A stretch of DNA of 44,360 bases from contig NZ_JAFLKV010000050.1 in NCBI RefSeq assembly GCF_019163035.1, forward strand, positions 1 to 44,360, in the 5' to 3' direction. The DNA comes from Sulfuricurvum sp. Its GTDB lineage: Bacteria > Campylobacterota > Campylobacteria > Campylobacterales > Sulfurimonadaceae. This document shows positions 22,750 to 44,360 of the stretch, one piece after another. The position numbers were made by a program, and so were the translations under genes. A model generated the notes under the pieces. The model saw nothing but the letters and a program-made list of their open reading frames with translations. It did no database searches and had not been told where the DNA came from. Each line of letters opens with the position of its first letter. Within the stretch, counting starts at the first letter, position 1.

Positions 22750-23199
22750 TTATTCTGGAGTAGGTGCTAAATCAATACCTTCTATATTACTTTCAATCTT
22801 ATCACTACATTGAACTGTTGCGACTTGTTTTCTATTTATGAAAACGTTAATACCTGCTTCAATTGCATGACTTTCATTCATTCTATCAACGCCCCAAAAA
22901 ACATTATAAACAGTATTTGCATTTGGTATATCTATTGAATAGGACATGAATGATCCCATACCATTCCACTGCGTAGTCGTTACTTGTTGACGAGGAACAT
23001 TAATTACTAATTCAGGTTTTGTTTTAGGTTTTCCGAAAGAGTATTCAATAGTGGATTTATTATCGCAAACTTCAATTTGCTTTCCCTTCTTGGTCATACA
23101 ATAAAAAATAGTATTGCTATTATTAGAGCATGAACCATAAAGTGACATTCCTAAGAGTGATAAAAATGCAAATAAACGTATAATGCGGTTCATTTTCAT
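22750..23199 (-). CDS. Hypothetical secreted protein
   Basis: Start MKMNRIIRLFAFLSLLGMSLYGSCS with AAGGAT RBS; signal peptide; AT-rich. The ORF-track start at 23235 is probably too far upstream. Confidence 0.7.
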   Translation of the reverse strand: MKMNRIIRLFAFLSLLGMSLYGSCSNNSNTIFYCMTKKGKQIEVCDNKSTIEYSFGKPKTKPELVINVPRQQVTTTQWNGMGSFMSYSIDIPNANTVYNVFWGVDRMNESHAIEAGINVFINRKQVATVQCSDKIESNIEGIDLAPTPE

Positions 23200-23209
23200 A
23201 TCCTTATAA

Positions 23210-23788
23210 TTATTTGCATTCCCATTCTTCAGCATACGCGAATGACTTAGATTCTAATAGTTTATCATCAAAAAACAATTGACCAACTAATACATCTGTT
23301 TTATTAACTTTAATTGTTTTAGATGTTTTAAATATAAATGGTTCAAAATCTCTAACTGAAGAACCTTGTTTTGTCAACTTTTCATTTAAAAATGTTGTAA
23401 CTCCAGCTTGACCCTCGTTTACTTTACATGTTTTTTCAAGAATTTGCTTTTCTTTACAAGATTCATAAAAAATGTCGCCAACCTTAATACCATTAGGGAC
23501 TGATTGAAACTTAACCGTTTGCTTATAATCTTCACCTTCAGATGAACATATTAATAAAATGTTATATAGATTTTTACTTTCTGCTATGACTTGCAATATT
23601 TGACATCCTGCTTCTGTACCAAATTCAATATCTTTGCTTCGGATAGTGAGAGGTAAAATTGTGTACTGAAGCTGACAAGTTGCTTGTTCCCCTGGATTGG
23701 TGTATTTGCCAATTAAACTTTTAGGGATCTCAACAGCACTTAAATTTATGTTTATCAATAGGAATAGTGTAATCCATTTATATATCAT
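23210..23788 (-). CDS. Hypothetical secreted protein
   Basis: Signal peptide MIYKWITLFLLININLSAVE; Cys-containing; 10 bp from the next gene. Confidence 0.7.
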   Translation of the reverse strand: MIYKWITLFLLININLSAVEIPKSLIGKYTNPGEQATCQLQYTILPLTIRSKDIEFGTEAGCQILQVIAESKNLYNILLICSSEGEDYKQTVKFQSVPNGIKVGDIFYESCKEKQILEKTCKVNEGQAGVTTFLNEKLTKQGSSVRDFEPFIFKTSKTIKVNKTDVLVGQLFFDDKLLESKSFAYAEEWECK

Positions 23789-24017: not shown

Positions 24018-24036
24018 AGTGGTGACCCCAACGAGA
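24018..24036 (-). repeat. tRNA-Glu 3'-end copy of the 19-nt direct repeat (candidate att site)
   Basis: Second member of the direct repeat pair with 22664-22682. Confidence 0.75.
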
Positions 24037-24094
24037 TTCGAACTCGTATGGCCAGAATGAAAATCTGGAATCCTAACCATTAGATGATGGGGCC
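24020..24094 (-). tRNA. tRNA-Glu (anticodon TTC)
   Basis: Reverse complement GGCCCCATCATCTAATGGTTAGGATTCCAGATTTTCATTCTGGCCATACGAGTTCGAATCTCGTTGGGGTCACCA folds as a tRNA with encoded CCA. Confidence 0.96.
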
Positions 24095-24115
24095 ACATAA
24101 ATGTGGTTGAAAAAG

Positions 24116-24191
24116 TGGTGTCCCGTGATGGATTCGAACCATCGACCCCTTCATTAAAAGTGAAATGCTCTACCAGCTGAGCTAACGGGAC
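24116..24191 (-). tRNA. tRNA-Lys (anticodon TTT)
   Basis: Reverse complement GTCCCGTTAGCTCAGCTGGTAGAGCATTTCACTTTTAATGAAGGGGTCGATGGTTCGAATCCATCACGGGACACCA. Confidence 0.96.
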
Positions 24192-37405: not shown

Positions 37406-38928
37406 GTTTGTTATCTCCGATGTGGCTATATGCTCTTATCCTCCTCCCCCTTTATCTCTGGGGGGCACGTTGCTATGGCTGGCATAAGCAATTTTGGCTT
37501 ACGCTGAGTGTCTTCTTTTTGATCCTCTCCCTCACCCGTCCCGTAATACCAGAAAAACCGATCAGCGTCGAAGAATCGGGAAGCGATGTGATCTTAGCCG
37601 TCGATGTGTCGTATTCGATGAGGGCGACCGACGTTGCACCCACACGTCTGGATGCGGCGAAGCAGGTTTTGAAACAAATCGTTGCACGTGATCGAAAAGA
37701 TCGCTTCGGGGTACTTGCCCATACGACGAGTGCGATTATCCTCTCCCCTCTGACTAAAGACACCGAACTTCTCGAACACCTCTTCGGCTCGCTCGATGAG
37801 TCGCAGATTATCACCAAAGGGACAGAGGTGATGAGTGCGTTGGAATTGGCGCGTAAAATGTCCCATGCACAGCACCCGTTGCTCGTCCTTTTTACCGACG
37901 GAGGAGATCAACTCTCGTATGAAAAAGAGTCTGCGTATGCCGAGGAAAAGGGTCTGAGGGTGTGTATCGTGATGCTTGCCACATCAGGTGGCAGCACTCT
38001 GCCTAGCGAAAACGGCTCGCTCAAAGATGAAGAGGGGCATATCGTCGTAAGTTCACGCAACGATGCGATTAATGCCGTCGCTGAACAAAGCGGGGGGAAA
38101 GTGATCGATGGCGCCGATGCGGACGCAGTGATCGAGTGGATCGAACGTGAACGGAGTGAAGATTTTGCAGGCGAATCTACAGTGACACGCTATGAAGAAC
38201 TTTTTTATTTTCCTCTGGTGCTGGCGTTGATCGCATTTGTACTGGCGTATACGAGTGTAGGGGAGAGGGTGAGTAAAGTTCTTATCCCTTTGCTCGCACT
38301 GGTAGGTATGAGTGCCCATGCGGGAGTACTCGATTATCCCTATCAAACCTTAGGAAAATATGAGTATTCTCATGGAAATTATGAACGTTCGGCTCAGTGG
38401 TATTATCATATCGATTCCCCACAGGGGAAGTTTAATCGTGCGGCTTCTCTTTACAAAGGGGGAAAATATGCCGAAGCACTGGCGGTGTATCGCCAGGTCC
38501 GATCCAATGATCCGATCTTCAAATCCAAAATCTTTTACAATATGGGTAACGCTCATATCCGCCTCAGCGAGTTTGAAAACGCTCGTCAAGCACTGCTCAA
38601 ATCGCTAACACTGCGCTATAGCCGCCAAGCCGATCAGAATCTAAAAGCGATTGCCATAGCGCAAGAGCAAAAATCGCTCAATGTCCGTAAAGAGAAAAAA
38701 GATCAATTCACCTCGGATGAGAACAAACCCACGGGTGAGGGGAAAAAAACCAAAGAGGGGGGAGCATCGAATATGCAAAGCGATATAGCCTCCTCCGGTG
38801 CGGGAGATGCAGGGAAAAAGGCGCAAGCAGATCCCCGTTTTTCTACGTCGCAGGGCAAAGCCGCTCTTAGTTCCAAACAGTATGAATTGATCAATCAAAG
38901 GAGTGTCCATGAAACGAAGCCTTGGTAG
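37402..38928 (+). CDS. BatB-like VWA protein fused to BatC-like TPR domain
   Basis: ATG at 37402 (MSLLSPMWLYALILLPLYL); DVILAVDVSYSMRATDVAPTRLDAAK; C-terminal TPR (ALAVYRQVRSNDPIFKSKIFYNMGNAHIRLSEFENARQALLKSL). Confidence 0.9.
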   Translation: MSLLSPMWLYALILLPLYLWGARCYGWHKQFWLTLSVFFLILSLTRPVIPEKPISVEESGSDVILAVDVSYSMRATDVAPTRLDAAKQVLKQIVARDRKDRFGVLAHTTSAIILSPLTKDTELLEHLFGSLDESQIITKGTEVMSALELARKMSHAQHPLLVLFTDGGDQLSYEKESAYAEEKGLRVCIVMLATSGGSTLPSENGSLKDEEGHIVVSSRNDAINAVAEQSGGKVIDGADADAVIEWIERERSEDFAGESTVTRYEELFYFPLVLALIAFVLAYTSVGERVSKVLIPLLALVGMSAHAGVLDYPYQTLGKYEYSHGNYERSAQWYYHIDSPQGKFNRAASLYKGGKYAEALAVYRQVRSNDPIFKSKIFYNMGNAHIRLSEFENARQALLKSLTLRYSRQADQNLKAIAIAQEQKSLNVRKEKKDQFTSDENKPTGEGKKTKEGGASNMQSDIASSGAGDAGKKAQADPRFSTSQGKAALSSKQYELINQRSVHETKPW

Positions 38929-40015
38929 GCTAGTCGCGCTGATGATTCTCAGTGTGTCCGGATGGGGGGCAACCTATCAGTGGAAGGTGCTCGAAGCGCC
39001 GCAAAGTCTCTACGTCCAGCAAAGCGGTGTGGTGCGGTATGAGTGTACCTTTTCAACCAATGCGGCGGACTATACGATTGCGTTTCAACCGAGCGGAAAT
39101 GAACGCTATAAAGCCTCTATCTTAACCCAGCGTGATCGGATCGTGGAGGGGAAACGGGTACAGACCTTTGATGTACTGATCACCCCGACCCAAGAGGGGA
39201 GCGTTGAGGTTGCATTGGATGCGCTGATGCGTCATACGACGTTTGCATCGATCGAGAATGCCTCCATCGGTCGCGATAACGTCAAAAAATACGATTTCGA
39301 TGATGAGAGTGCCCATCTGCCCAAAGTTCTGATTGCCGCACAAGCCAACGCAGCGGCACTCAGCGGAGAGCTATCTTTGGAAGTGAGAGTCGATAAACGA
39401 AGTGTGGTGGCTCACGAACCGGTTCATCTGAGCCTCTATATCCGTGGACGCGGGAATCTCGATCAATACATCCCGTATGAGCTAAACATCAGCGGCGTCA
39501 ATGTGTTCGCCGAAGAGCCGACACGTGACATTACCCTCGATACGGCTGGATTTTCGGGGGAGATACGTCAGGAATTCGCCCTCGTGAGTGAACAAAGTTT
39601 TGTGATTCCGAAAATCTCTATCGAGGTGTTTGATACCCAAAGCCAAAAGATCAAACGGCTCTATAGTGAGGCGGTAGCGATCGAAGTGGCACAAGGATTC
39701 GAGCGCACCAACCTCCTCGATCCTCCCGCTTTGCGTGATTGGAGTTCTTTGGCTCGTTTTGCTCTCTATGGATCACTGGTGCTTGCAGGGGTCGTGTTGG
39801 GTGAAGTTGCACGAAGAGTGTGGAAGATGCGACCTCGCAGAAAACGAAAGCAGTTTTACGATGATGCCAAAACCTCCAAAGAACTTGTGATGCTTCTCGC
39901 TCTCTCAGGGGAGAGGGTGTACGAGCCGATTATCGCCGAACTCGAAGCGGGAACACTGGATTTGCGTGAAGCGAAGAAAAGGTTAGACGCTTATCCCGCG
40001 CGCTCAAGCGTGTAA
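38909..40015 (+). CDS. BatD-like (oxygen tolerance) membrane protein
   Basis: Signal peptide MKRSLGRLVALMILSVSGWGAT; beta-rich ectodomain; TM; follows batA/batB. Confidence 0.85.
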   Translation: MKRSLGRLVALMILSVSGWGATYQWKVLEAPQSLYVQQSGVVRYECTFSTNAADYTIAFQPSGNERYKASILTQRDRIVEGKRVQTFDVLITPTQEGSVEVALDALMRHTTFASIENASIGRDNVKKYDFDDESAHLPKVLIAAQANAAALSGELSLEVRVDKRSVVAHEPVHLSLYIRGRGNLDQYIPYELNISGVNVFAEEPTRDITLDTAGFSGEIRQEFALVSEQSFVIPKISIEVFDTQSQKIKRLYSEAVAIEVAQGFERTNLLDPPALRDWSSLARFALYGSLVLAGVVLGEVARRVWKMRPRRKRKQFYDDAKTSKELVMLLALSGERVYEPIIAELEAGTLDLREAKKRLDAYPARSSV

Positions 40016-40302
40016 AGAGATCGGACACTCTCTTCTATCTCTTTTTCATGATCGGTAGGAGCGGTACTGTTGCTTTTGGAGATAAAATAGAGATATTCAG
40101 GGGCAATATCAGCTCCGTTACTCCAACTGATCGTACCGCAATCAATAAAAAAAGATTGAAAAAACTCTAAATTATGCAACGGTTCAAATATCTCTCCCTC
40201 TAATTCACTACTCAAATCCACCAATCGCTCAATGGTTTGATTAAATACGAGTTTGATTCTGTAATCACCTGCATAGTGTGCGTCAGTCACTTCTAAAATC
40301 AT
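39991..40302 (-). CDS. DUF2442-family protein
   Basis: YRIKLVFNQTIERLVDLSSELEGEIFEPLHNLEFFQSFFIDCGTISWSNGADIAPEYLY matches the DUF2442 pattern. Confidence 0.85.
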   Translation of the reverse strand: MILEVTDAHYAGDYRIKLVFNQTIERLVDLSSELEGEIFEPLHNLEFFQSFFIDCGTISWSNGADIAPEYLYFISKSNSTAPTDHEKEIEESVRSLYTLERAG

Positions 40303-40311
40303 TTTTGTCTC

Positions 40312-40392
40312 CTATTTTAGAGGTTCGATTGTTTTGGGTAGTTTTTTAAACCCTTTTTTAAACGATGCCGTCCGAAAAATATCGTATTTCAC
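40312..40392 (-). pseudogene. Truncated RelE/YafQ-like toxin N-terminus (26 codons)
   Basis: GTG start overlapping the antitoxin stop (TCGTGA): VKYDIFRTASFKKGFKKLPKTIEPLK-stop, typical of RelE/YafQ N-termini. Confidence 0.7.
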
Positions 40393-40640
40393 GAGAGTAA
40401 ATCTCGTTTTAACGCTTCCATAGAGGTGAATTTTTCACCCTTGCGCTCTTCGAGTTCTTGGAGGGCTATTTTCATCCGCTCGCTTGGAACTTTGAGTTCA
40501 AAAGGGATGGAGTGGGTGAGGGCAACTTGTTTACAAAAGAGGTTGATACCGTCGCTCAGACTCATGCCGTATTGTTTCAACACAGCGGTAGCAATCTCTT
40601 TTGCATCGTTGTCGATTCGGATGCTGGTACTGGTACGCAT
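40389..40640 (-). CDS. RelB/DinJ-family antitoxin
   Basis: MRTSTSIRIDNDAKEIATAVLKQYGMSLSDGINLFCKQVALTHSIPFELKVPSE. Start at 40640, not the ORF-track start at 40817, which runs through an intergenic repeat. Confidence 0.9.
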   Translation of the reverse strand: MRTSTSIRIDNDAKEIATAVLKQYGMSLSDGINLFCKQVALTHSIPFELKVPSERMKIALQELEERKGEKFTSMEALKRDLLS

Positions 40641-40742
40641 GGCAAACTCCTTTTTTATTATTGTACCACAAATGGGGTGCAAAATAGAATTTCGATGAAT
40701 TAAGGGCATAAAAGATACCATTAAAACACATATAAATTTTGC

Positions 40743-40815
40743 CGTTCGCCCTGAGCTAGTCGAAGGGTAAAACGGACGGTTTGTCATCCTCGGGCTTGAC
40801 CAGGGGATCCATCCC
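40743..40815. repeat. Intergenic repeat elements: TTCGCCCTGAGC..GTCGAAGGG followed by GTCATCCTCGGGCTTGACCAGGGGATCCAT
   Basis: Both resemble widespread dispersed bacterial intergenic repeats; the second recurs inverted at 44289-44314. Confidence 0.6.
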
Positions 40816-40897
40816 AAAAAAAGAAAAACAAAATTAGGAATTTGGATGAAATTAGTCTATTTATGGGTTGAAGTTGTGCAAAAATCATTAAGGAAAA

Positions 40898-43057
40898 ATG
40901 ATGAATAGAGAAGAAGCAGAATTAAAATTAAAACAAATTTTTGGATTCGATCATTTTTTTGATGATCAATGGAAAACTATTGATAGAATATTACAAAAAA
41001 AGAGAGTGTTACTAATAGAAAAAACGGGATTTGGAAAGTCTTTAACTTTTCAATTTCCAGCCACTCAATTTGATGGTTTAACAATAATTTTCTCCCCTTT
41101 AATCGCTTTGATGAGAGACCAAATAAAATCTCTCAATGAAAAAGGTATTAAAGTCGGGTTAATTAATAGTGGCGAAACTGATGATGAAAACAACCTTACA
41201 ATTCAAAAAGCCATTAATAATGAACTGAAAATTTTATATATTGCTCCTGAACGACAAGAAAATAGTATATGGCAAGAATCGGTATCAAAAATGAATGTAT
41301 CGTTTGTTGTAGTTGATGAAGCTCACTGTATATCCTCTTGGGGACATGATTTTAGACCAGCGTTCAGAAGAATTATTAACTTAATGCAGATACTACCCGC
41401 AAATATACCAGTCCTTGCTACTACTGCTACCGCAACAATAACTGTAGCACAAGATATAAAAAATCAAATTGGTGGAGATATTGAACTCATTCGTGGTGAT
41501 TTACTTCGTGAAAATTTAAAACTTAATGTCATTCATGTAAATAGTGAGGAAGAGAAGATGGCTTGGATTTCAAACTATCTTGAAAGAATTGATGGTAATG
41601 GTATTGTTTATACAGGAACGAGAAGTAATGCAGAAATTTTTTCGAAATGGTGTGAAAGTGAAAATTTAAATACAATTTACTATCATGGAGGATTAGATAG
41701 TAATAGTAGAAAATCGGTTGAAAAAGAGTGGATGAATAATAAGTTTAAAGCTGTCATATCTACAAATGCTTTAGGCATGGGCATAGACAAATCAGATATA
41801 CGGTTTATTATTCATACGCAAATAACACAATCACCAATCCATTATTATCAAGAGATTGGAAGAGCAGGACGAGATGGAAAAACTGCTGAAATATTTTTAC
41901 TTTTTAACCCTAATGATACAGAGCTACCATTAAGTTTTATTAATGGGGCAAGACCATCTTTTGAAAAATATGGAAAAGTTATAAATGCTTTAAAACAAGA
42001 GTCATTAGGCGAAAAAAATGTTGAAAAGAAAACTAATTTAACAAAGAAGCAAGTAACAACTATTTTAGCAGATTTAATCGATCAAAAAATTATTATAAAA
42101 AATAAAAATAAAAAATATGAATATCTATATAATGCACCACAGCTTGATTTTAGCTCATTTGAAGTTTTAAGAAATCATAGATTGGAAGAATTTAATAAAA
42201 TGCTTGAATATATTGATACTGATCAATGCAAAATGCTTTATTTGTGCAACTACTTAGGAGATACTAACTTCGATAATTGTGAAATTTGTGATAGTTGTTT
42301 ACATAATAAAAATCAATTTTCAATGAGCGAAAATGATAATGAAAAAATTAAACGATTTCAAGAAAATTATTTTCCAGTTTTAGATGTTTCAATTAAAAAA
42401 ACAAAATTAAAAGAGAAATATATTATTAAATATGTTAAAGATAAAGAATATGATGTATCTTTAAATAATCAATTGTTATCAGACAGTGAATATGTTAGAT
42501 TGAGTTTAGTTGATAAAAAAATATTTGATGAATTAATGCTAGAAGCTTATAGTGAACTAAGGCTTATTAATGGTGTAGCTTCATCATATTATGGTTTCTC
42601 AAATGTTGGAGTAATAATCCATAAATGTAAATATGAGAATGGTGGTGATTACCCTATAATATTATTACAACAAACTTTAAGAGCCTTTGGAAAAACTTTT
42701 AAAGAGCAAAAATTTGATTTAATTATGTTTGTTCCTCCCACAAAATCAGGAAAACTTGTAGAAAATTTTGCAAATAAAATAGCTTCTACTTTAAAACTTC
42801 CTATTGCATCACTTATAAAAATTAAAGAGACTAAAGAGCAAAAAATATTTCAAAATGGAGCATTAAAAACGGAAAATATAAAAGATGCTTTTTGGACAGA
42901 TACTGATGTCAATGGATTATCGATTTTACTTATAGATGATATTTTTGATAGTGGTGCGACAATGAAAGAAATTGGTAAAATGCTTACAAAAAAAGGTGCA
43001 AGGGTTATTGCACCTCTAGTTATAGCAAAAACTGTAGGAGGAGATATTGAAAACTGA
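40898..43057 (+). CDS. RecQ-family helicase with C-terminal ComF-type phosphoribosyltransferase domain
   Basis: Helicase motifs: EKTGFGKSLTFQFPA, VVVDEAHCISSWGHDFRPAF, ATTATAT, STNALGMGIDKSDIRFIIH, YYQEIGRAGRDG. Zn cluster CKMLYLCNYLGDTNFDNCEICDSC. PRTase: GVIIHKCKYENGGDYP, DLIMFVPPTKSG, KETKEQKIFQNGALKTENIKDAFWTD, PRPP loop ILLIDDIFDSGATM. Confidence 0.92.
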   Translation: MMNREEAELKLKQIFGFDHFFDDQWKTIDRILQKKRVLLIEKTGFGKSLTFQFPATQFDGLTIIFSPLIALMRDQIKSLNEKGIKVGLINSGETDDENNLTIQKAINNELKILYIAPERQENSIWQESVSKMNVSFVVVDEAHCISSWGHDFRPAFRRIINLMQILPANIPVLATTATATITVAQDIKNQIGGDIELIRGDLLRENLKLNVIHVNSEEEKMAWISNYLERIDGNGIVYTGTRSNAEIFSKWCESENLNTIYYHGGLDSNSRKSVEKEWMNNKFKAVISTNALGMGIDKSDIRFIIHTQITQSPIHYYQEIGRAGRDGKTAEIFLLFNPNDTELPLSFINGARPSFEKYGKVINALKQESLGEKNVEKKTNLTKKQVTTILADLIDQKIIIKNKNKKYEYLYNAPQLDFSSFEVLRNHRLEEFNKMLEYIDTDQCKMLYLCNYLGDTNFDNCEICDSCLHNKNQFSMSENDNEKIKRFQENYFPVLDVSIKKTKLKEKYIIKYVKDKEYDVSLNNQLLSDSEYVRLSLVDKKIFDELMLEAYSELRLINGVASSYYGFSNVGVIIHKCKYENGGDYPIILLQQTLRAFGKTFKEQKFDLIMFVPPTKSGKLVENFANKIASTLKLPIASLIKIKETKEQKIFQNGALKTENIKDAFWTDTDVNGLSILLIDDIFDSGATMKEIGKMLTKKGARVIAPLVIAKTVGGDIEN

Positions 43058-44147
43058 TTTAGTTTACTGGATATTATTTGCCCACTTGCCGAGATGGACA
43101 ACATTAAAAATAAATAAGTTACTTGTTGATATTTTACATCATCAAAAAATGACATTTGAAATGTTTTTTGACCTTTCATATGATGAATGGAGTAAAACAT
43201 TCAATCTTGATGCTAAAGAGATAGGTGATTTACAACAAGCACGTAAAGAGTTAGCTAATTATGCTTTTTTACTCGAAGATATGTTAAGTCAAGGATATGA
43301 ACTTATTCCGTTTAATTCAAGTGAATATCCAAAGATTTTAAAAGATAATCTGAAATTAAAATTTTCTCCTCCACTCCTTTACATCAAAGGGAATAAAAAC
43401 CTTTTTAATGAGGATACAATCGCAATTGTTGGTTCAAGAAGTGCTGATAATATCTCTTTAGAGTTTACAAAAAATATTGCAATCAATGCTACTAAAAAAT
43501 ATCAATGTGTTGTGAGTGGTGGAGCAAAAGGGGTTGATGAGGCAGCACTGGAAAAGAGTGTAAATGCAAATGGTCATAGTATATTGGTTTTACCTCAAGG
43601 CATTTTAACAGCATCCTCGTTTATGAAGAAATATTATAAAAGTATTGTGGATGGAAATTTATTGATAGTAAGTGCTTTTTTCCCAAAAGCTGGATGGAGT
43701 ACCGGTCTTGCTATGGGAAGAAATAAATATATATATGGATTATCAAAAGAGATATATGTTGCTCAATCTGATACTAAGGGTGGTACTTGGTCTGGTGTTT
43801 TGGAAGGATTAAAAGCAGAGAGAACGATATATATTAGAAAGCCTCAAGAAAGTGAAAATAATGCAAATGATTTATTGATTTTAAAAGGTGGGAAAGCCGT
43901 TGACATCAAGGGCAATCCAATAGAAATAGATCAAAGTAATGAAATATCACTTGATGATAAAATAAAAAAAGCCATTAAAGATGTAGCTCTGACAGCGGCA
44001 GAAATTAAGGAAAAAATAAATTATGATATTGATAGCAGAAAATTTTCATTATATTTAAGTAATTTGCCTTTTATAAAAAAAGAGAAAAAAGGAAATCTTA
44101 ATGTATTTTTTTACAAACATGAAACAAAACAATTGAGTCTATTTTAA
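43047..44147 (+). CDS. DprA/SMF-family Rossmann protein
   Basis: TTG start with GGAGGAG Shine-Dalgarno, 11-bp overlap with the helicase gene. DprA motifs TIAIVGSRSAD, VVSGGAKGVDEAALEKSV, LPQGI, GLAMGRNKYIYGLSKEIYVAQSDTKGGTW; N-terminal helical and C-terminal winged-helix-like regions. Confidence 0.92.
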   Translation: MKTDLVYWILFAHLPRWTTLKINKLLVDILHHQKMTFEMFFDLSYDEWSKTFNLDAKEIGDLQQARKELANYAFLLEDMLSQGYELIPFNSSEYPKILKDNLKLKFSPPLLYIKGNKNLFNEDTIAIVGSRSADNISLEFTKNIAINATKKYQCVVSGGAKGVDEAALEKSVNANGHSILVLPQGILTASSFMKKYYKSIVDGNLLIVSAFFPKAGWSTGLAMGRNKYIYGLSKEIYVAQSDTKGGTWSGVLEGLKAERTIYIRKPQESENNANDLLILKGGKAVDIKGNPIEIDQSNEISLDDKIKKAIKDVALTAAEIKEKINYDIDSRKFSLYLSNLPFIKKEKKGNLNVFFYKHETKQLSLF

Positions 44148-44288
44148 AAACATTAAGCGTGAGGCATTTTACGTAAAAGCTTTAATATGATCAACTAAAT
44201 TATCTAATGATTAGCAAGCTTTTTTATACAAACTCATCAGCGAAGAGTTGGGTTTGATATAGGAGAGGAAGATATAAAATGCCGAAGA

Positions 44289-44314
44289 TGGATCCCGTAT
44301 CCAGTACGGGATGA
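44289..44314. repeat. Palindromic intergenic repeat (stem-loop), inverted copy of the 40783-40812 element
   Basis: ATCCCGTA-TCCAG-TACGGGAT stem. Reverse complement GTCATCCCGTACTGGATACGGGATCCAT aligns with GTCATCCTCGGGCTTGACCAGGGGATCCAT at 40783. Confidence 0.65.
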
Positions 44315-44360
44315 CGAGATAAGTCGCTACACAAATAGAAACCTAAAAAGAAACAAGGTA

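Follow-up and report, generated by a model that had tools for sequence, protein, structure and literature searches.

The 44,360-nt window analyzed here, contig C6 of a Sulfuricurvum sp. genome assembly (G000), carries two overlapping genes, psyrT and psyrA, which by sequence are a member of the PsyrTA (RqlHI) toxin-antitoxin family. The locus as a whole is probably best explained as an acquired PsyrTA module, with a mechanism read from its homologues. The pair was apparently obtained by recent horizontal transfer, and it appears to have replaced the inside of the M62 operon, a two-gene candidate defence system, at the junction between batD and moxR.

Gene organization

Both open reading frames described in an earlier note on this DNA were confirmed with the same coordinates (Table 1). 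The psyrT product (719 aa) consists of a RecQ-like SF2 helicase (residues 1-340, approximately), a Zn cluster (444-467), a linker and a phosphoribosyltransferase (PRTase) domain (approximately 610-705). The RecQ motif set and the RecQ-type Zn cluster were located as previously described: Walker A GFGKS from residue 44, DEAH at 140, WGHDFRP at 148, GRAGR at 321, and the cysteines C444-x16-C461-x2-C464-x2-C467. The Pfam models DEAD (95 bits), Helicase_C (78 bits) and RecQ_Zn_bind (32 bits) all exceed their cut-offs. When checked against PRTases, the C-terminal domain matched PF00156 at residues 610-705 with 35.9 bits (cut-off 26.3). The PRPP loop DDIFDSGAT lies at residue 680, and its aspartates align with those of the E. 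coli and Acinetobacter homologues, to which the protein can be aligned with its catalytic motifs intact. The earlier description of this domain as ComF-like is thus right for a PRTase with a PRPP loop, but the likeness to ComF is only weak, as the ComF-type model TIGR00201 scores 33 bits, far under its 233-bit cut-off. The predicted structure of the PRTase domain has a mean pLDDT of 45 (4-sequence alignment), which is too low for use. Because the relatives open with MNRxEA, psyrT probably starts at the second ATG, 40901.

The psyrA product (366 aa) is a DprA/SMF protein, as had been proposed, with about 130 bits to PF02481 and with intact motifs GSR at residue 129 and SGGAKGVD at 157 (DprA-fold signatures) and GRNK at 224. 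Its TTG start overlaps psyrT by 11 bp and follows a strong Shine-Dalgarno sequence; a TTG-type start overlapping psyrT is common to the four closest relatives. The protein matches the solved ShosA chain 9vzo (E 7.8e-8), and its predicted structure has a mean pLDDT of 41 (4-sequence alignment), likewise too low for use. A promoter scan was uninformative, with 25 hits vs 20.4 expected.

The G+C content is 28.3% for psyrT and 30.0% for psyrA vs a mean of 41.3% (sd 5.2, minimum 30.2) for the 31 other genes of the window, which makes the pair the most AT-rich of the window's larger genes. AT-richness relative to the neighboring bat genes had been pointed out before; the pair is clearly AT-rich, but the contrast was overstated, as the bat genes (~51% G+C) stand at the window's GC-rich end. 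Small genes that are likewise AT-rich (30-32% G+C) occur at 22750-23788, adjoining tRNA-Glu and tRNA-Lys at 24020-24191; this may be a second acquired segment.

Table 1. Features of the psyrTA locus and its surroundings, in window positions
Feature	Position	Strand	Description and evidence
batD	38903..40015	+	Left flank of the hotspot
DUF2442 gene	39991..40302	-	Between batD and the relB-like gene; PF10387, 38 bits
RelB/DinJ-type antitoxin gene	40389..40655	-	In the same cargo region; PF04221, 61 bits
Palindromic dispersed repeat	40783..40812	+	GTCATCC...GGATCCAT, left of the cassette; pattern scan of own genome
5' remnant of PDC-M62A-type ATPase gene	40846..40873	+	First 9 codons, M-K-L-V-Y-L-W-V-E; match to G011 and G006
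psyrT	40898..43057	+	RecQ-like SF2 helicase-PRTase fusion, predicted toxin; PADLOC, Pfam and motifs
PRTase domain of psyrT	42725..43012	+	Predicted toxic centre; PF00156, PRPP loop DDIFDSGAT
Shine-Dalgarno sequence of psyrA	43036..43041	+	AGGAGG, inside psyrT, 5 nt upstream of the TTG start; sequence
psyrA	43047..44147	+	DprA/SMF-fold protein with C-terminal extension, predicted antitoxin; PADLOC, PF02481 and motifs
Decayed 3' remnant of PDC-M62B gene	44170..44315	+	Runs into the palindromic repeat; match to G011
Second palindromic repeat copy	44288..44315	-	Inverted, right of the cassette; pattern scan of own genome

Family assignment and comparison with known systems

PsyrTA of Pseudomonas syringae was reportedly described by Sberro et al. 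in 2013. Membership in this family is assigned because the PADLOC models for PsyrTA (PDLC03928/PDLC03927) score far above the next models: 827 bits for PsyrT over residues 3-716 of 719 (next family 358 bits) and 272 bits for PsyrA (next ShosA, 104 bits). The pair also has the composition of the family, namely a RecQ helicase with SF2 motifs and Zn cluster, a PRTase at the C-terminus of the same polypeptide, and an overlapping downstream gene for a DprA-like protein that is distinct from canonical DprA (27-32% identity to genus relatives). Gene order, overlap, the RecQ-PRTase fusion followed by a DprA-like protein, and the best full-length model match all agree with the P. syringae system. The window copy differs in belonging to a divergent clade, its PsyrA scoring 272 bits where seven further PsyrA homologues from the phylum reach 406-467 bits. 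Its PRPP loop has DSGAT in place of DSGWT, and the PsyrT linker carries an insert that only locus L093 shares.

With RqlH-RqlI of E. coli F11 the pair shares architecture, operon order and the conserved PRPP pocket, the one mutated to abolish toxicity, whereas the identity, measured on an E. coli plasmid homologue and not on F11, is ~30% for PsyrT and 37% over the DprA core for PsyrA. ShosTA of E. coli P2-like phages (Rousset et al. 2022) likewise combines a PRTase toxin with a DprA-like antitoxin, and the window PsyrA matches both the ShosA model and chain 9vzo; ShosT, however, lacks a helicase, and its match to the window protein is weak. Identity with ShosTA was therefore rejected on the helicase fused to the PRTase and on the scores (PsyrT 827 vs ShosT 21 bits). 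The ComFA/ComFC/DprA set offers the same helicase, PRTase and DprA functions, but from separate genes, with another helicase type and with a canonical DprA that is a shorter, different protein; a RecQ helicase with a fused PRTase and no separate ComFC does not belong to it.

In E. coli, RqlH alone causes SOS induction, filamentation and growth inhibition (Russell and Mulvey 2015; PMC4670107). According to the same study, toxicity requires the PRTase domain and the PRPP pocket, with D663A giving no notable growth or SOS effect, and mutants with a dead helicase lose viability, with SOS and filamentation increased. RqlH is neutralised by RqlI, and the two co-precipitate only when the PRTase domain is present. 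The parallel with ComFA/ComFC/DprA was also published earlier, in PMC4670107 (2015) and then in PMC5512222 (2017), and psyrTA, rqlHI and shosTA were grouped by their DprA-like antitoxin in PMC9122126, where DprA was suggested to sense phage DNA. Because these three papers came before, the helicase, PRTase and DprA idea of the earlier note is a rediscovery. Nor is the gene combination new, as each gene of PsyrTA/RqlHI has its own PADLOC model and the system is treated in papers from 2013-2022.

Distribution and horizontal transfer

PsyrA of the window type was found in one of 41 genus genomes, all other genus matches being canonical DprA at 27-32% identity; this contradicts vertical inheritance as a core gene of the genus. 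Across the phylum, PsyrA matches above 190 bits occur in 12 of 397 genomes scattered over several families. Most of these 12 also have a canonical DprA match, and in one, G409, no PsyrT-like gene adjoins psyrA. The closest relatives are found in G401 (same family), in two Arcobacteraceae MAGs (L091 and L092) and in a gammaproteobacterial MAG (L093), with identities of 74-78% for PsyrT and 69-77% for PsyrA. In L093 the neighbors of psyrTA are a GmrSD-type gene and a DUF4160/DUF2442 pair, a DUF2442 gene thus lying upstream of psyrTA there too; the genes on either side we take to be ppsA and ppsR. The transfer is considered recent because the identity is alike across phyla and the neighbors differ each time. 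The earlier view that the pair was acquired as one unit agrees with the patchy distribution, the cross-phylum identity and the hotspot position.

A scan of IMG/VR found no relative. Among phage proteins, the best matches are remote, DprA/ShosA-like and <60% identical, none covering 80% of the query, and plasmid relatives are ~30% identical; a prophage or plasmid origin of the window copy was rejected on these grounds. In two distant relatives (L081:7607-9623 and L083:333-2416) a single frame change near helicase motif VI disrupts psyrT, and psyrA is open. A toxin and its antitoxin would be expected to show such asymmetry, although the frameshifts may also be assembly errors.

Three loci of the phylum (L085-L087) have a homologue within a type I restriction-modification (RM) operon, as does an E. 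coli IncF plasmid (L094), where it is nested between hsdS and hsdR. On an Acinetobacter plasmid (L095:1-14037) a BREX cluster holds a homologue between its pglX and pglZ genes. Others adjoin PD-Lambda-4, AbiE, Druantia-like or type IIG genes (L084, L088) or stand among apparent housekeeping genes (L079, L080, L091, L089). These contexts are those of the inspected loci and carry no enrichment statistic against background. The family thus shows the genomic features of an anti-phage defence system, namely patchy occurrence, horizontal transfer and a place in defence islands or hotspots.

The batD-moxR junction

In 9 of the 12 relatives having both genes, a gap of only 20-32 bp separates batD from moxR, counted between their aligned ends. 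The other three hold cargo between them: 0.7 kb in G012 (L121), 3.7 kb in G011 (L125) and 5.2 kb in G006 (L124). In the assembly studied here, moxR starts at base 84 of contig C67, the first 55 bases of which are identical to the last 55 of the window; from this exact overlap, moxR lies ~29 bp past the window end and psyrTA is in the same batD-moxR junction. The cargo of G011 comprises the relB-like region and PDC-M62A/B, that of G006 a relB-like gene, a ParE-type TA, Bro-N/PDC-S13, ParA and a RelA/SpoT domain. The junction (40016-44360 in the window) thus holds different TA or defence-like cargo in different species of the genus. The DNA of the relB-like region is ~94% identical to the same site in G006 and G011 and the batD protein there only ~49%, which indicates that cargo moves separately from the bat operon. 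No toxin partner was seen adjoining the RelB/DinJ-type gene.

Remnants of both ends of the M62 pair flank psyrTA, and the pair is intact at the same place in G011 (L125:6750-9688, minus strand), where it encodes an AAA ATPase and its partner and is listed by PADLOC as candidate defence; it is for these reasons that the insertion is read as a replacement. On the left, 29 nt agree, but for 1 mismatch, with the beginning of the M62A gene that occupies this site in G011 (E 1.8e-7). In G006, where the M62A start precedes other cargo, 31 nt match (93.5%). On the right, 127 bp match the M62B 3' end and moxR leader of G011 (74%, E 1.6e-20), and tblastn recovers the M62B C-terminus on the remnant (E 3e-5); the palindrome and the moxR leader follow as in G011. 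On this reading, psyrTA would probably use the M62 upstream region.

No direct or tandem repeats flanking the cassette were found around psyrTA. The two palindromes were considered as a transposon sign and rejected, being a dispersed genomic repeat, one copy of which G011 already has in its M62B region; there the repeat is found at the M62B end, and it also occurs in G006. In G011 the palindrome supplies the last codons of M62B (MDPVSSTG). The form GTCATCCYGWACTNGATWCRGGAT is also present on contigs C2, C3, C4, C9, C17, C55 and C68 of G000, sometimes near contig ends.

Proposed function and alternatives

Toxin-antitoxin behavior is most likely for the window pair by analogy with the E. coli-type proteins, to which its PsyrT is only ~30% identical. 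Going by the experiments on E. coli RqlHI, PsyrT would travel along DNA by its RecQ motor, and PsyrA would bind the PRTase domain and hold PsyrT inactive. Helicase activity and PsyrA would both restrain the PRTase, which without PsyrA binding would harm DNA or nucleotide metabolism and pools. The trigger may be invading or damaged DNA that frees the PRTase, sensed either as ssDNA by the DprA fold of PsyrA or as a structure met by the helicase; an infected cell with freed PRTase might then stop growing or die, i.e., abortive infection. We infer an anti-phage defence role of the window copy. Of the two roles suggested in the earlier note, defence or ssDNA uptake, the first is in keeping with the defence-type context, and the second is contradicted by the toxin-antitoxin behavior of homologues in experiments.

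That the pair is instead a DNA-maintenance module, acting on damaged or stalled host DNA and toxic only when unbalanced, is unlikely. It was put forward as a model in PMC4670107, which also reports that M. smegmatis RqlH is a DNA helicase without RqlI and that most Gram-positive RqlH genes lack RqlI, so that a helicase-PRTase is not always half of a TA pair. PsyrTA of E. coli NILS69, tested in its native host and under expression, moreover gave no detected phage protection upon deletion or expression, and its expression slowed growth (PMC12409345). Both this result and the RqlH genes lacking RqlI also speak against the favored toxin-antitoxin and defence reading. Against maintenance stand the strongly patchy distribution with recent cross-phylum transfer, the swapping in a cargo hotspot, the nesting inside RM and BREX operons, and a separate housekeeping-type RecQ gene on contig C35 of the same genome. 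A selfish addiction module, persisting by post-segregational killing with no defence benefit, is distinctly unlikely: homologues do behave as toxin-antitoxin, and the hotspot contains a RelB antitoxin without a partner here and, in G006, a ParE-type TA pair, but the window copy is chromosomal and homologues are repeatedly embedded in complete defence operons. Quite improbable is a more specific proposal, a distinct inter-phylum-mobile PsyrTA subtype in which the RecQ-delivered PRTase would phosphoribosylate DNA, or consume PRPP or bases at DNA, once foreign ssDNA draws PsyrA off; if true, DNA phosphoribosylation would be an abortive-infection chemistry.

A competence or ssDNA-uptake module, with RecQ in place of ComFA, the PRTase as ComFC, and DprA, is highly improbable and was ruled out on the distribution of canonical DprA and the homologue data, although the domain analogy speaks for it and was raised too in PMC4670107 and PMC5512222. 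Canonical DprA (~250-280 aa, 168-187 bits to PF02481) is already present in nearly all genus relatives, and homologues of the pair show PRTase toxicity and antitoxin action. The family also occurs in E. coli, which is generally considered not naturally competent. PsyrA (131 bits) is the only DprA match in the present assembly, which is 88% complete in 155 contigs, so that the pair could have been read as merely supplying housekeeping transformation. The surroundings of dprA in relative L097, however, map to the last base of contig C31 (22203) and the last base of contig C5 (45407), and the gene itself falls in the unassembled stretch between them. Because these flanks map to exact contig ends, the absence of canonical dprA is very probably an assembly gap artefact, and PsyrA was rejected as the sole DprA of the genome.

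Significance

As a system PsyrTA was known already; what is new is the local history of psyrTA as a member of a divergent mobile clade. For studies of PRTase action and its trigger, the locus offers a compact PsyrTA clade that was freshly transferred and has its motifs intact. It also keeps, inside a conserved operon junction, what appears to be the scar of one candidate defence system replaced by another, and the batD-moxR junction is a place to seek more defence cargo in this group.
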